DNA of 39,319 nucleotides. Origin: an uncultured Actinomycetes bacterium (GTDB lineage Bacteria > Actinomycetota > Acidimicrobiia > Acidimicrobiales > Acidimicrobilacustridaceae). The stretch is from positions 1 to 39,319 of the forward strand of contig CAMFLJ010000002.1 in the NCBI GenBank assembly GCA_945957335.1, read 5' to 3'. Made by a program: the position numbers and the translations under genes. The first letter of the stretch is position 1. Each line of letters opens with the position of its first letter. Positions 25,411-33,429 of the stretch are shown piece by piece. The notes below the pieces were generated by a model that saw nothing but the letters and a program-made list of their open reading frames with translations, was not told the origin of the DNA and did no database searches.

Positions 25411-26544
25411 TCAGAGGATGGTGACGGGGATGCGCTTGCGGCCGACGCCGATCGGCTTCGAGTGGTCGTGGCTGACCGTCGGGCGCACCGCGCCGCCATC
25501 GGCATCGAGCGCCTTGAGGGCTTCCTCGCCGTAGCCGAACACGCACTCCGGGTCGGGGGCGTCGAGGGGCAGGCCGGTGAAGAACTTGGCGGCCATGCAA
25601 CCGCCGCCGCAGGCGTCGAAGCTGCCGCACGAGGCGCAGGCCCCGGGGCTCGAGGGCTCGCGCAGCGAGGTGAAGAGGTCGGACGAGCGCCAGATGGCGG
25701 CGAACCCGCCCTCGTCGCGCACCGAGCCGGCCATGAACTCGTCGTGCAGCACGAACGGGCAGGCGTAGACGTCGCCCACCGGGTCGATGAGGCAGACCAC
25801 CCGGCCGGCGCCGCACAGGTTGAGGCCCGGCAGCGGCTCGCCCAGCGCCGAGAGGTGGAAGAACGAGTCGCCGGTGAGGACGTGGGGGCGCTCGAGGAGC
25901 CAGTGGTAGAGGCGCACCTGTTGCTCGGAGGTGGGGTGCAGCTCGTGCCAGGTGTCGATGCCGCGGCCCGAGGGGCGGAAGCGGGTGAGGCGGAGCTCGG
26001 CGCCGTACTCGTCGGCCAGGGCCTCGTAGGCGTCGACCTGGTCGACGTTCTGGCGGGTCATGACCACCGAGAGCTTGAACTGGGGGTAGCCCGCCGCCTT
26101 CAGGTGGTCCATGGCCTGGCGCACCCGGGCGTGGGTGCCCTCGCCGCGGATGAGGTCGTTGGTCTCCTCGTCGACGCCGTCGAGCGAGATCTGGATGTCG
26201 ACGTAGTCCATCGCCGCCAGGCGCTTCGCGTTCTCGGCGGTGATGCGGCCGCCGTTGGTCGAGAACTTCACGCCGACGCCGCGCTCGACGCAGTACTCGA
26301 CGATCTCGAAGAAGTCGGGGCGGAGCATGGGCTCGCCGCCTCCGATGTTCACGTAGAACACCTGCATCTCGGCGAGCTGGTCGACGATGCCCTTCATCTC
26401 CTCGGTGCTGAGCTCGCGGGGGTCGCGGCGGCCCGAGCTGGAGAGGCAGTGGACGCACTGCAGGTCGCAGGCGTAGGTCCACTCCCAGGTGAGGCAGATG
26501 GGGGAGTTGAGGCCCTGGGCCAGCTGGTCGGTGAGCGCGGTCAC
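25411..26544 (-). CDS. mftC: Mycofactocin radical SAM maturase
   Basis: LTWEWTYACDLQCVHCLSSSGRRDPRELSTEE (CxxxCxxC), NIGGGEPMLRPDFFE, SPASM-like C-terminus CGAGRVVCLIDPVGDVYACPF...CASCGSFDACGGGCMA. GTG start overlaps the mftB stop. Confidence 0.93.
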   Translation of the reverse strand: MTALTDQLAQGLNSPICLTWEWTYACDLQCVHCLSSSGRRDPRELSTEEMKGIVDQLAEMQVFYVNIGGGEPMLRPDFFEIVEYCVERGVGVKFSTNGGRITAENAKRLAAMDYVDIQISLDGVDEETNDLIRGEGTHARVRQAMDHLKAAGYPQFKLSVVMTRQNVDQVDAYEALADEYGAELRLTRFRPSGRGIDTWHELHPTSEQQVRLYHWLLERPHVLTGDSFFHLSALGEPLPGLNLCGAGRVVCLIDPVGDVYACPFVLHDEFMAGSVRDEGGFAAIWRSSDLFTSLREPSSPGACASCGSFDACGGGCMAAKFFTGLPLDAPDPECVFGYGEEALKALDADGGAVRPTVSHDHSKPIGVGRKRIPVTIL

Positions 26545-26840
26545 GAGGACTCCTCGGGGACGATGAAGTCGCCGGCGGCGAGCGACGTGAGGGCCTTCTC
26601 GAACGACGGCCAGCGGCGGTCGTCGATGCCGGCGGCGGTGAAGGCGGCCCGCGCGCTCGGCTCGTCGGCGAGGCGCTCGACCAGGTCGACGAGGTCGGGC
26701 GAGCGCAGGAAGGTGAGGCGCCGGTTGCCGTAGTGGTAGGCCAGCGCGCCGAAGGGCTCGGGGCGCAGGGCCACCCGCTCGTGCAGGTGCCACCGGCGAT
26801 CGGCGTCGAACGTGGTGGTCACGGTTGTCGCGGTGGTCAT
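26541..26840 (-). CDS. mftB: Mycofactocin biosynthesis chaperone (RRE-type)
   Basis: WHLHERVALRPEPFGALAYHYGNRRLTFLRSPDLVDLVERL; position between mftA and mftC; GTGA overlap with mftC. Confidence 0.9.
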   Translation of the reverse strand: MTTATTVTTTFDADRRWHLHERVALRPEPFGALAYHYGNRRLTFLRSPDLVDLVERLADEPSARAAFTAAGIDDRRWPSFEKALTSLAAGDFIVPEESS

Positions 26841-26901
26841 GACGGTGCCGTGCCGGTGGTCCCGCGAGGCGGGACCGGGGCCGGACGGGCGAGGCGTCGG
26901 C

Positions 26902-27018
26902 TCAGTAGACGCCGCACATGCCGTCGATGGAGATCTCCTCGACGAGGAGCTCCTCTTCGGCGGTGTCGTCGTCGGTGACCAACTCGTCGGTCTCGGTGTG
27001 CTCGAGCGTCTGCTCCAT
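26902..27018 (-). CDS. mftA: Mycofactocin precursor peptide (38 aa)
   Basis: Manual translation: MEQTLEHTETDELVTDDDTAEEELLVEEISIDGMCGVY*; C-terminal IDGMCGVY is the MftA core. Missing from the supplied ORF track. Confidence 0.93.
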   Translation of the reverse strand: MEQTLEHTETDELVTDDDTAEEELLVEEISIDGMCGVY

Positions 27019-27096
27019 GTCCCCTCCAGAGGAAGCGGCGGTGCGCCCATCCTACCGGCCCCGCCCGGCCCGCCTGTAGCCCGGCCCCGGCCTGTC

Positions 27097-27143
27097 CCTC
27101 TGGTTCGGTTCATGAGCCCATGGGCGACGTGCTGTACCAGAGG
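27097..27143. repeat. 47-bp imperfect palindromic repeat, copy 1
   Basis: CCTCTGGTTCGGTTCATGAGCCCATGGGCGACGTGCTGTACCAGAGG; 44/47 identical to copy 2; complementary 12-bp ends (2 mismatches). Confidence 0.85.
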
Positions 27144-27224
27144 GGCCGGCGGGGCGCGCGGTGGCGCGCGTTTGTGCGCGCGGTATCCACCACGCTGTCA
27201 CACCCCCTGGGTACCGTCGCCGAC

Positions 27225-27407
27225 GTGGCCCGACCCCGCACCTTCGAAGAGCCGCGCGTGCCCACCGCCGTGCGCCTGCCCGAGTCGCTGCACGACCGCC
27301 TCCACCGCGAGGCCTCGGCGCGCGACGTCTCGGCCAACCTGCTCGTCACCAAGGCGCTCGAGGCCTACCTCGAGAAGCTCCCTCCCGTCGAGGAGGTCGC
27401 CCCGTGA
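27225..27407 (+). CDS. Small ribbon-helix-helix (Arc/CopG-like) DNA-binding protein
   Basis: VARPRTFEEPRVPTAVRLPESLHDRLHREASARDVSANLLVTKALEAYLEKLP; GTG start chosen so the upstream repeat stays non-coding. Confidence 0.7.
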   Translation: MARPRTFEEPRVPTAVRLPESLHDRLHREASARDVSANLLVTKALEAYLEKLPPVEEVAP

Positions 27408-28897
27408 CCGAGCCCAAGAAGCGCACGCGGACCGTCACCTCCAACTTCGGGTCGTCGCGGCGGGAGAGCCACGACGCCACCGCCTTCTACGACCGCTTCG
27501 TGGCCCCCGAGGTCTCCTCCGACGACACCGTCGAGCTCAACGACCCCGGCGTGGTCGACACCATCCACCTCGGCGACATCTCCGAGGTGCAGAACCTCAA
27601 GCCCAACTCGGTGGCCCTCGTGGTCACCTCGCCGCCCTACTTCGCGGGCAAGGCCTACGAGGAGAGCCTCGGCGAGAACGGCGTGCCGGCCGACTACTTC
27701 GAGTACCTCGCCATGCTCGAACGGGTCTTCGCCGAGTGCGAGCGCGTGCTCGAGCCGGGCGGGCGCATCGCGGTCAACGTCGCCAACCTCGGCCGTCGCC
27801 CCTACCGGTCGCTGGCCGGCGACGTCACCCAGATCCTCCAGGACCTCGGCCTGCTGTTGCGGGGCGAGGTCGTGTGGTGGAAGGGCCGGGCCGCCGGCGG
27901 CTCGTGCGCATGGGGCACGTTCCAGCGCCCCTCCAACCCGGTGCTGCGCGACGTCACCGAGCGGGTGGTCATCGCCAGCAAGGGCCGCTTCGAGCGGGCG
28001 CTCACGCCGGCCCAGCGCGAGAAGCGCGGCCTGCCCCACGAGTCGACCATCTCCAAGGACGAGTTCCTCGAGGCCACCACCGACCTCTGGGAGATGCCGC
28101 CCGAGAGCGCCACCCGGGTCAACCACCCGGCGCCGTTCCCGGTCGAGCTGCCCGAGCGGCTGATCCACCTCTACACCTACAAGGGCGACCTCGTGCTCGA
28201 CCCGTTCATGGGCTCGGGCAGCACCGCGGTGGCCGCCGTGCGCACCGACCGCCACCACGTGGGCTACGACCTCGACCCCGAGTACGTCGCCCGGGCCGAG
28301 GCCCGCATCGCGGCCGAGGTCGAGCGCCTCGGCGCCATCGACGTCGACCAGCTCTCGCTGTTCAAGGTCACCCTCCCGGCGGTGAAGGTGAAGGACCAGC
28401 CCGAGCCCGAGCCCGGCGACTACCAGTCGCGGGCCGTGCGCGAGGGCCGCCAGGCCAAGGAGATCGCCGAGGCCCTGCTCAAGGACTGCGGCTTCGACAT
28501 CAAGGGCCACGACGTGGGCATGCCCGGCGGCGTCGAGGTCAACATCGTGGCCGCCGACGCCAACGGCACCGACTGGGCCTTCGACGTGTCGGGCGCCTTC
28601 ACCTCCAACCGGGCCGGGCTCAAGCGCACCGACACCCTCTGGAAGGCGCTGGGCAAGGCGTCGGTGCTCTCGCTCGACCCCACCTTCGACATGCCCGTGG
28701 TGCTGCTCACCACCGACAAGCCGGCCAAGGGCAGCGCGGGGGCCAAGGCCCTGGCCGCCTCCACCGGATGGCACCCCGGCCGCGAGCGCCGCCGGCCGGT
28801 GGCCGCGGTGGTCGAGATGCTCGACGCGCAGGGCCGGGCCGAGCTCACGCGCTACGCCGCCGAGGGCCGCATCGCCCTGCCGCACCTCCCCGACTGA
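27404..28897 (+). CDS. Beta-class site-specific DNA methyltransferase (N4-cytosine or N6-adenine) with C-terminal extension
   Basis: VTSPPYFAGKAYEE (motif IV) precedes VLDPFMGSGSTAVAA (motif I); WEMPPES...NHPAPFPVELPERLI; GTGA overlap with the RHH gene. Confidence 0.92.
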   Translation: MTEPKKRTRTVTSNFGSSRRESHDATAFYDRFVAPEVSSDDTVELNDPGVVDTIHLGDISEVQNLKPNSVALVVTSPPYFAGKAYEESLGENGVPADYFEYLAMLERVFAECERVLEPGGRIAVNVANLGRRPYRSLAGDVTQILQDLGLLLRGEVVWWKGRAAGGSCAWGTFQRPSNPVLRDVTERVVIASKGRFERALTPAQREKRGLPHESTISKDEFLEATTDLWEMPPESATRVNHPAPFPVELPERLIHLYTYKGDLVLDPFMGSGSTAVAAVRTDRHHVGYDLDPEYVARAEARIAAEVERLGAIDVDQLSLFKVTLPAVKVKDQPEPEPGDYQSRAVREGRQAKEIAEALLKDCGFDIKGHDVGMPGGVEVNIVAADANGTDWAFDVSGAFTSNRAGLKRTDTLWKALGKASVLSLDPTFDMPVVLLTTDKPAKGSAGAKALAASTGWHPGRERRRPVAAVVEMLDAQGRAELTRYAAEGRIALPHLPD

Positions 28898-28903
28898 CCG
28901 GCC

Positions 28904-29998
28904 GTGTCGGCCGACCGCACCTTCGTCACCGAGCTGGCCACCGGCCTCGGCATGCTCCTGCCCCCCGAGGGCGAGGTGGCGGAGCTCGGCGCGCTCATCG
29001 ACGCCCGCCCCCCGCAGCTCGCCAACCTCGGACCCGACGGGTGGCAGCGCCTCGCCGAGCTGTGGGCCGGTGGGGCCTTCGCCGACGACTTCGCCCACGG
29101 CGCGGCCAACGGCCGGGCCTTCGCCGCCGCTCCCGACGCCCTCAACGGCCGGCCACCGCGCATCGTCGAGTGGACCGGCCCCCGCCGGGCTCCCGGCGAC
29201 GAGGTCGTGCCTGCCGACCTGCGCGTCGACCACGTCTACCTCGTGAGCTGCAAGTACCTGTCGAAGGTGCTGCACAACGCCTCGCCTCCCCGGCTGGTCG
29301 ACGGGCTGCTGGCCCAGGGCCCGGTCGAGGAGCGCGGCGACTGGTACGCCGCGGTCGCACCCGCCGAGCACGCCGAGCTCTACGCCGCGTGCACCGACGC
29401 CCTCGGCGGCGGCTGGCCGGCGCGGGCCGACGAGCTCGACACCGAGCAGCGCCGCGCCCTCGCCACAGCCCTGCGCGGCGCCTGGCCCGACGACGCGGTC
29501 GAGCCCTACGGCCGTCTGTGCGCGGCCGTGGCCTCGGCCACCGTCGCCCGCTGGTCGGCCCGCATCGACGCGCGCTCCCGCGAGGCGCTGCTCTGGCGGC
29601 TGCTGCGCATCGGCTCGGCCCCCTACTTCGTGCTCGGCAGCAGCGCCTCGGGGCCGATGCGGCTCCGCATCGACACGCCGTGGGACTGGCGCCAGCGGTT
29701 CGCCCTGCGGGGCTTCGAGGTCGAGGCCCAGCCCGGCGGCCAGCCGCGCGTGGCCTGGCGGGGCCACTACCGGGTGCTCGCCACCGGCGACGACCGCACG
29801 GTCGAGGGCCACGTCGAGCTGCGCTGGAGCCACGGCCGCTTCAGCGGGCCGCCCGAGGCCAAGGTCTACCTCGACACCCCTCACGACCAGGTGCCCGGCT
29901 ACCACCCGCTCGACGGCGGGCCCGTGGCCCCGGCCGATCCACCGCCGCCGGCCGATGGCGACGTCGACGGCGACCTCGACCTGACCCTGTTCGGCTGA
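28904..29998 (+). CDS. Putative nuclease / restriction-endonuclease-like protein, partner of the methyltransferase
   Basis: Starts 6 bp after the methyltransferase stop, same strand; VPADLRVDHVYLVSCKYLSKVLHNASPPRLV resembles a PD-(D/E)xK core strand. Function inferred from context. Confidence 0.5.
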   Translation: MSADRTFVTELATGLGMLLPPEGEVAELGALIDARPPQLANLGPDGWQRLAELWAGGAFADDFAHGAANGRAFAAAPDALNGRPPRIVEWTGPRRAPGDEVVPADLRVDHVYLVSCKYLSKVLHNASPPRLVDGLLAQGPVEERGDWYAAVAPAEHAELYAACTDALGGGWPARADELDTEQRRALATALRGAWPDDAVEPYGRLCAAVASATVARWSARIDARSREALLWRLLRIGSAPYFVLGSSASGPMRLRIDTPWDWRQRFALRGFEVEAQPGGQPRVAWRGHYRVLATGDDRTVEGHVELRWSHGRFSGPPEAKVYLDTPHDQVPGYHPLDGGPVAPADPPPPADGDVDGDLDLTLFG

Positions 29999-32427: not shown

Positions 32428-33429
32428 ATGGCCACCTCCCTCGACGACCTGCTCGCCCGGCGGGTCGACAAGGTGGGGGAGGTGGCCGTCAGCTCGGGTG
32501 ACGTCCTGCGCTGGAGCGAGGCCCACCGGGTGCGCTCGCCTCGGCACTGGCCCGATCGCACGCCCGGCTGGGTGGCGCCGCCGGCGATGGTCACCTCGTT
32601 CGTGCGGCCCCTCGAGTGGCGGCCCGACCGTGACGGCCCGCCGGGCGACCGCGGCTCGACGCTGCACGAGGAGCTGAAGGCGCTCCTCGGCCTGCCGCTG
32701 GGCATCGCCTCCGGCTACGAGCTCGAGCTGCACGCCCTGCTGGGCGACGGCGACGAGCTGGTGGCGGTCGAGCGCATCGCCGAGGTCGGCGAGCCCGAGG
32801 TGTCGCGCCTGGGCCCGGGTCGGCGCTGGGTGATCGAGAACGCCATCTCGCGGGTCGGCGATGGCGCCCTCGTGGCCGTCGAGCGCTTCCACATGCTCGG
32901 CTACGACCCCGCCGCCCCTCGCCGGCCCGAGCCCTCTTCCTCCTCTGGTTCGGTTCGTGAGCCCAGGGGCGACGTGCCGTACCAGAGGGAGGGGAGCGTG
33001 GTCGCGGTGGAGGAGGTGGACGTCAGTGCGGTGGCGATCGTGATGGGCGCGTCGGCCAACCGGGTGTGGACCCCGGCCCACGTCGACGTCGACGCCGCCA
33101 ACGCGGCGGGCATCGCCGACATGTTCCTCGACACCTCCACCCAGCTCGGGCTGCTGTCGGTGGTCGGTGGCCGGGCCGCGCACGACGACGCCCGGCCGGG
33201 CCGGCTCTCGCTGCGGATGCGCCGGCCGGTCCTGCGCGGCGACCACCTGGTGGTCGAGGCCACCGCCGCCCCGGTCGTGGTCGACGACTCGGGCGTGGCG
33301 TGGGTGGAGGTCGACGTGCGGGCGACCGTCGGGGGCGAGGTCCGTAGCTCGGTCACCGGCCGCTACGCCGTGCCGGGCGGCGATGCCACCGACCCGTGGG
33401 CCCTCGGCCCCGACCGCTGGCACCCCTGA
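32428..33429 (+). CDS. Double-hotdog MaoC/FAS1-like dehydratase-domain protein
   Basis: N-terminal FAS1-like hotdog (ELKALLGLPLGIASGYELELHALLGDGDEL) and C-terminal hotdog (VWTPAHVDVDAANAAGIADMFLDTSTQLGLL...LSLRMRRPVLRGDHLVVEA). Confidence 0.7.
   Translation: MATSLDDLLARRVDKVGEVAVSSGDVLRWSEAHRVRSPRHWPDRTPGWVAPPAMVTSFVRPLEWRPDRDGPPGDRGSTLHEELKALLGLPLGIASGYELELHALLGDGDELVAVERIAEVGEPEVSRLGPGRRWVIENAISRVGDGALVAVERFHMLGYDPAAPRRPEPSSSSGSVREPRGDVPYQREGSVVAVEEVDVSAVAIVMGASANRVWTPAHVDVDAANAAGIADMFLDTSTQLGLLSVVGGRAAHDDARPGRLSLRMRRPVLRGDHLVVEATAAPVVVDDSGVAWVEVDVRATVGGEVRSSVTGRYAVPGGDATDPWALGPDRWHP
32942..32988. repeat. 47-bp imperfect palindromic repeat, copy 2, inside the hotdog-protein CDS
   Basis: CCTCTGGTTCGGTTCGTGAGCCCAGGGGCGACGTGCCGTACCAGAGG; ends complementary over 12 bp with one mismatch; contributes about SSGSVREPRGDVPYQRE in frame. 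Confidence 0.85.

Follow-up and report, generated by a model that had tools for sequence, protein, structure and literature searches.

The locus examined here raises the question of whether a small regulator, a DNA methyltransferase and a protein outside the named families, encoded by three coupled genes, form a restriction-modification (R-M) system, and which of the proteins would cut DNA. The genes lie in a window of 39,319 nucleotides, the whole stretch of DNA that was analysed, within contig C2 of a 3.7 Mb genome in 444 contigs that belongs to the class Acidimicrobiia. The first-pass annotation had suggested either a Type II-like restriction partner or a modification-dependent effector as the third gene product. 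The evidence favours the former and nothing favours the latter, and we consider it probable that the operon is a Type II-like R-M system, which is the best supported reading.

All three genes stand on the same strand, as had been described, with the stop of the ribbon-helix-helix (RHH) gene and the start of the methyltransferase (MT) gene overlapping in GTGA and a gap of 6 bp between MT and the third gene, P3 (Table 1). For the RHH gene, homologs favour the GTG start at 27225 over a longer open reading frame from 27120. The regulator is present here but is no fixed part of the operon, being found upstream of MT in 17 of the 102 loci with enough upstream sequence (13/45 with P3 versus 4/57 without P3). 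The operon neighbours are of ordinary metabolism, namely radical SAM/SPASM, VTT-domain, amidohydrolase, short-chain dehydrogenase and epoxide hydrolase proteins; the radical SAM/SPASM gene and a small ORF upstream of it form a pair that we take to resemble a mycofactocin-type maturation cluster. A 48-bp element with inverted ends (CCTCTGG...CCAGAGG) and a strong predicted hairpin (z about -3) occurs twice in the window, one copy being 80 bp upstream of the RHH start, and six times genome-wide at up to 3 mismatches, with no occurrence of the reversed-pattern control; an Rfam scan over the locus, including the copy upstream of RHH, found no family.

Table 1. Positions of the operon genes, their motifs, neighbouring elements and features of related loci
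Feature	Sequence	Positions	Strand	Basis
RHH regulator, 60 aa	window	27225-27407	+	Pfam HicB PF05534, E 8.3e-6, above cutoff; homologs upstream of MT in 17/102 loci
MT, beta-class DNA methyltransferase, 497 aa	window	27404-28897	+	PF01555, E 1.2e-36; PADLOC MTase_II PDLC03350, E 8.2e-85; TTHA0409 fold, Foldseek E 1e-20
MT motif IV TSPPY, residues 75-79	window	27626-27640	+	translation; invariant in alignment
MT motif I DPFMGSGST, residues 266-274	window	28199-28225	+	translation
MT C-terminal nuclease-like domain, eroded active site, residues 340-491	window	28421-28876	+	predicted topology; homology to stand-alone N proteins; catalytic columns lost; 1/31 members matches UPF0102
P3, candidate restriction endonuclease, 364 aa	window	28904-29998	+	no Pfam/NCBIfam family; weak PADLOC REase_II match in 55/59 homologs; AlphaFold pLDDT 91.7
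P3 E89, candidate catalytic residue	window	29168-29170	+	58/59 homologs
P3 P103-x-D105...S115-C-K117, candidate PD-x-(S)xK site	window	29210-29254	+	P103, D105, K117 in 59/59; S115 in 58/59
P3 C-terminal signature RWSHG..PEAK, residues 307-320	window	29822-29863	+	invariant columns; overlaps region matched by PADLOC PDLC03456; shared with viral-contig fragment beside m5C methyltransferase
48-bp hairpin element	window	27097-27144 and 32942-32989		inverted ends; predicted hairpin
Radical SAM/SPASM gene	window	25411-26793	-	
Small ORF upstream of it	window	26541-27113	-	
N, candidate nuclease	L123	5640-6062	+	follows MT
N, candidate nuclease	L129	1469-1888	-	follows MT
P3 split by frameshift	L029	6001-7066	+	
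P3-like C-terminal fragment and m5C methyltransferase	viral contig L087/L088	76-1680		P3 profile

MT (METHYLTRANSFERASE) is clearly a beta-class methyltransferase. Residues 70-298 match N6_N4_Mtase in Pfam, the nearest PADLOC profile is MTase_II PDLC03350 (E 8e-85, residues 3-308), and the protein is closest to TTHA0409 of Thermus, whose fold it matches in Foldseek. The two motifs named in the first-pass annotation are indeed there, and because TSPPY stands before DPFMGSGST, their order is that of the beta class; MT thus offers what the modification half of a Type II R-M system calls for, a methyltransferase with intact motifs I and IV, as PF01555 and PDLC03350 also indicate. TSPPY usually accompanies N4-cytosine methylation, and it suggests that N4-methylcytosine may be the product here. 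A cell-cycle methyltransferase of the CcrM type was rejected, the NCBIfam CcrM equivalog reaching 54.7 bits against a cutoff of 830.

P3 has no family in Pfam or NCBIfam, in keeping with the earlier remark that it lacks an obvious common domain. Its residues 103-121 (PADLRVDHVYLVSCKYLSK) had been likened to a PD-(D/E)xK strand with a non-standard SCK, and this likeness is upheld by conservation, P103, D105 and K117 being kept in every aligned homolog, but not by fold comparison, since a Foldseek search of the P3 model against the PDB gave no solved nuclease and no match at E <= 0.001. A fold unlike that of a nuclease had been named beforehand as a point against the idea, and to the extent of this search the point stands in part. 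Sequence searches of the PDB, by single sequence and by profile, gave nothing meaningful either. S120, N125 and P128 are likewise invariant (59/59), and in the AlphaFold model, a confident one (pLDDT 91.7), E89, D105 and S115-x-K117 lie on or beside short strands. P3 therefore has the acid...acid/variant-x-K pattern, deviant with S for D/E, and because no solved member matches its fold, we do not file it as a PD-(D/E)xK member and say only that it may work like one. The serine is no strong objection, since PD-(D/E)xK sites often deviate, their two parts being not invariant and 4 to 51 residues apart, and an acid or lysine may be recruited from elsewhere (PMC4081073).

A restriction function is also suggested by the PADLOC "Type II restriction enzyme" profile REase_II PDLC03456, which matches 55 of the 59 P3 homologs weakly (best E 2.3e-5); the P3 of the window matches it at E 0.0024 over about 28 of 387 profile positions, confined to the C-terminal signature. 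When the same profile was run over 297 genomes of the phylum and 14 control genomes, it gave no match. Eleven close pairs show purifying selection on P3 (dN/dS 0.01-0.18), which, together with the spread of its homologs and the invariant residues, marks the observation as more than chance; in the pair formed by the window and L029 the ratio is higher, about 0.5 for both MT and P3. In L029, from a relative of the same genus, a frameshift near residue 73 interrupts P3 ahead of the candidate catalytic motif, which reflects either a pseudogene or an assembly error.

Relatives of P3 were also sought in viruses. Among the viral contigs searched, one relative was found, a P3-like C-terminal fragment directly upstream of an m5C DNA methyltransferase, with a second m5C methyltransferase nearby (E 7.6e-15 against the P3 profile in a search of that one contig), and this setting is what membership of the C-terminal part in a wider family of restriction enzymes would predict. 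With P3, the P3 consensus or the viral fragment as query, tblastn gave no credible match among plasmids and phages. In BFVD, Foldseek aligned the P3 model with seven uncharacterised or unnamed viral proteins (E 4e-8 to 4e-4, TM up to 0.51, about 10% identity), including proteins of uncultured Caudovirales, a Synechococcus phage and Satyrvirus, with no function attached.

The distribution of the two genes shows that P3 depends on MT. P3 homologs occur in 49 of the 296 genomes of the class, and in the phylum sample outside the class they were found in two genomes of one genus only, one of them as a short match. An MT of the family is present in all 49 P3 genomes; 44 of them have the C-terminal domain described below and five have the MT core, which in one of these five (G203) is seen only as an incomplete copy at the edge of a contig. 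The two genes adjoin on one strand in most loci. P3 is therefore adjacent to and dependent on the methyltransferase, as the restriction gene of a Type II system is, and could fill that role. The pairwise distances of MT and P3 correlate across 47 loci, the rows left after gappy and broken ones were dropped (Pearson 0.76, Spearman 0.49; largest of 1000 permutations 0.13 and 0.19), whereas an earlier comparison of 51 uncurated rows gave a weak correlation (r 0.29) that was exceeded in at least one of 500 permutations; because both ignore species relatedness, these correlations show shared history at most.

The dependence runs in one direction. A methyltransferase widely solitary, lacking this partner, had been anticipated as evidence against the R-M reading, and this was found in part, as the MT C-terminal domain occurs in 122 of the 296 genomes of the class, which places MT in at least 122 against 49 for P3. 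MT could then be primarily a solitary regulatory methyltransferase, with P3 an occasional accessory such as a reader or other DNA-binding protein and no restriction enzyme, and the absence of a nuclease fold match for P3 agrees with this. In addition, among 56 MT loci without P3 no restriction partner recurs apart from the second nuclease type described below; as judged by eye, the neighbours of solitary MTs include proteins of DnaK-like and HNH type. Orphan methyltransferases that lack a partner are commonly found in lineages (PMC12707154), and since MT is often solitary, it may have functions of its own. However, MT is patchy in its distribution and its flanking genes vary, P3 matches a restriction-enzyme profile and keeps a nuclease-like motif, and a second nuclease type fills the same slot. 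On the MT tree, moreover, the presence of P3 needs 19 changes, a count slightly too high because L038 was labelled as solitary though its P3 had been merged with a neighbour by a simple gene caller, and at least 9 changes are forced by well-supported branches; such scatter fits repeated loss or gain of the restriction gene. We therefore regard the solitary regulatory role as unlikely, and an MT that can lack the nuclease, with a nuclease that never lacks the MT, is what one expects if the two are a protecting methyltransferase and its restriction enzyme.

Downstream of its catalytic core, MT carries an extension of about 150 residues that the first-pass annotation had missed. Residues 340-491 have the predicted topology a-a-b-b-b-a-b-a-b-a, and among 31 members of this domain there is no match to a Pfam family, except for one that matches UPF0102 at 1.8e-4, a family listed in the PD-(D/E)XK clan (PMC1913061); in the Foldseek search with MT, the methyltransferase part dominates the matches. 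The identity of the domain is indicated by a stand-alone protein of about 140 residues, N, which follows MT in five genomes (L123, L129, L130, L139 and L140) and aligns with it along the full length (hhalign E 5.7e-25). N has the motif GVE(I/V)D...WFEYKGS, and the candidate catalytic residues D44, E58 and K60 of this D...(D/E)xK arrangement are each kept in 5/5. In the 31 MT-fused copies, the first of these columns is mostly N (D in 5/31), D predominates in the second, and all 31 have S, A, T or C in the third, the window MT having N380, D394 and S396. The active site of the fused domain is eroded and its catalysis has probably been lost. Since N is homologous to the fused domain and keeps the D, E and K that the fused copies have lost, MT bears a decayed form of a nuclease which, in some relatives, persists as a gene of its own that is apparently still live. 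A single-chain Type IIC/IIG enzyme was accordingly rejected, as the MT chain lacks an active nuclease site.

In a search of the class, full-length N was found only beside an MT of the family, with a short broken remnant in a sixth genome (G072), and P3 is absent from all N genomes. Because N takes the place of P3 in the five genomes, the candidate nucleases paired with this one methyltransferase family are of two unrelated kinds; P3 showed no detectable homology to either N or the MT C-terminal domain (hhalign probability <1%). A further conserved ORF of about 105 residues, SP, absent from the window, lies between MT and either nuclease gene in many loci, namely before N in L123, L129 and L130 and before P3 in L044, L045, L052, L053, L055-L057, L059, L061, L062, L065-L067, L069 and others. 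Its consensus resembles YAVV..DPP.V..AED...L.R.LAL..VA, and three members searched against Pfam gave no significant match.

That the MT C-terminal domain is homologous to N, a small protein whose D...ExK is intact, also brings up an arrangement in which P3 would be a specificity or docking subunit, with cutting done by the fused domain or by a two-protein complex. Migration of the lysine to another motif is known in the superfamily (PMC1913061), and an arginine after the third core strand is invariant in the fused domain. Nevertheless, the fused copies keep the motif II acid in only 5/31 and the motif III lysine in 0/31, and three P3 genomes that were examined (G134, G283 and G004) have the MT core with no C-terminal domain found, so that we hold this arrangement to be very unlikely. 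That P3 is a Type IV-like nuclease cutting DNA with foreign methylation is extremely improbable, for nothing specific speaks for it beyond its compatibility with a nuclease gene beside a methyltransferase, and a cognate host methyltransferase would then be needless, yet P3 always co-occurs with MT.

Under the Type II-like R-M reading, we propose that MT would modify a short sequence in host DNA and so protect it, while P3 would recognise the same sequence, unmodified, in incoming DNA and cut there. The metal-dependent site of P3 could consist of E89, D105 and K117, with S115 replacing the usual acid, in a nuclease fold that the conserved motif suggests. The RHH protein likely tunes expression, and the MT C-terminal domain may serve DNA contact, dimerisation or docking. 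More tentatively, and as a reading that we think rather doubtful, these loci may represent a modular R-M platform of Acidimicrobiia, wherein the MT bearing a dead nuclease would act as the scaffold for recognition and for the docking of unrelated nucleases, either P3 or the live homologue N, and some lineages would add an adaptor of about 105 residues. What is new is an essentially undescribed candidate nuclease family outside Pfam and NCBIfam coverage, a methyltransferase family that carries a pseudo-nuclease in fused form, the live counterpart of which is a separate gene in relatives, and the exchange of nuclease partners. Within one bacterial class, the family illustrates how the nuclease of a restriction system may be lost or exchanged as the methyltransferase stays in place, and it provides concrete proteins for testing shared target recognition by MT and nuclease.

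Compared with known systems, the operon resembles Type II R-M systems with a beta-class methyltransferase, of the PvuII, RsrI and HpyAVI type, in the methyltransferase fold, the adjacent candidate restriction gene and the small upstream regulator, which recalls C-protein control. However, the nuclease here belongs to an unnamed family, an RHH protein takes the place of a helix-turn-helix C protein as regulator, MT has a C-terminal pseudo-nuclease, and the nuclease partner varies among relatives. PDLC03456 is the sole known restriction-enzyme profile matched by P3 homologs, in the C-terminal signature, but the similarity is weak and the N-terminal candidate active site lies outside the match. 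With the CCGG-family enzymes (NgoMIV, Cfr10I, BsaWI), which have a PD...K...E site, P3 shares an N-terminal glutamate, a PD-type aspartate and a lysine that is not preceded by an acid at the -2 position (PMC4652773); membership of that family (NgoMIV/Cfr10I; PDx21-53Kx12-13E) was rejected, as D105 and K117 are 12 residues apart, no conserved acid stands at K+12 or K+13, and the fold search gave no match. Finally, BtgZI-like fusions (Type IIC) also join an N-terminal methyltransferase to a C-terminal variant PD-(D/E)xK-type domain (PMC4081073), whereas in the present system the methyltransferase is of the beta class, the fused domain seems to have no catalytic activity left, and MT is followed by a separate gene for a candidate nuclease.
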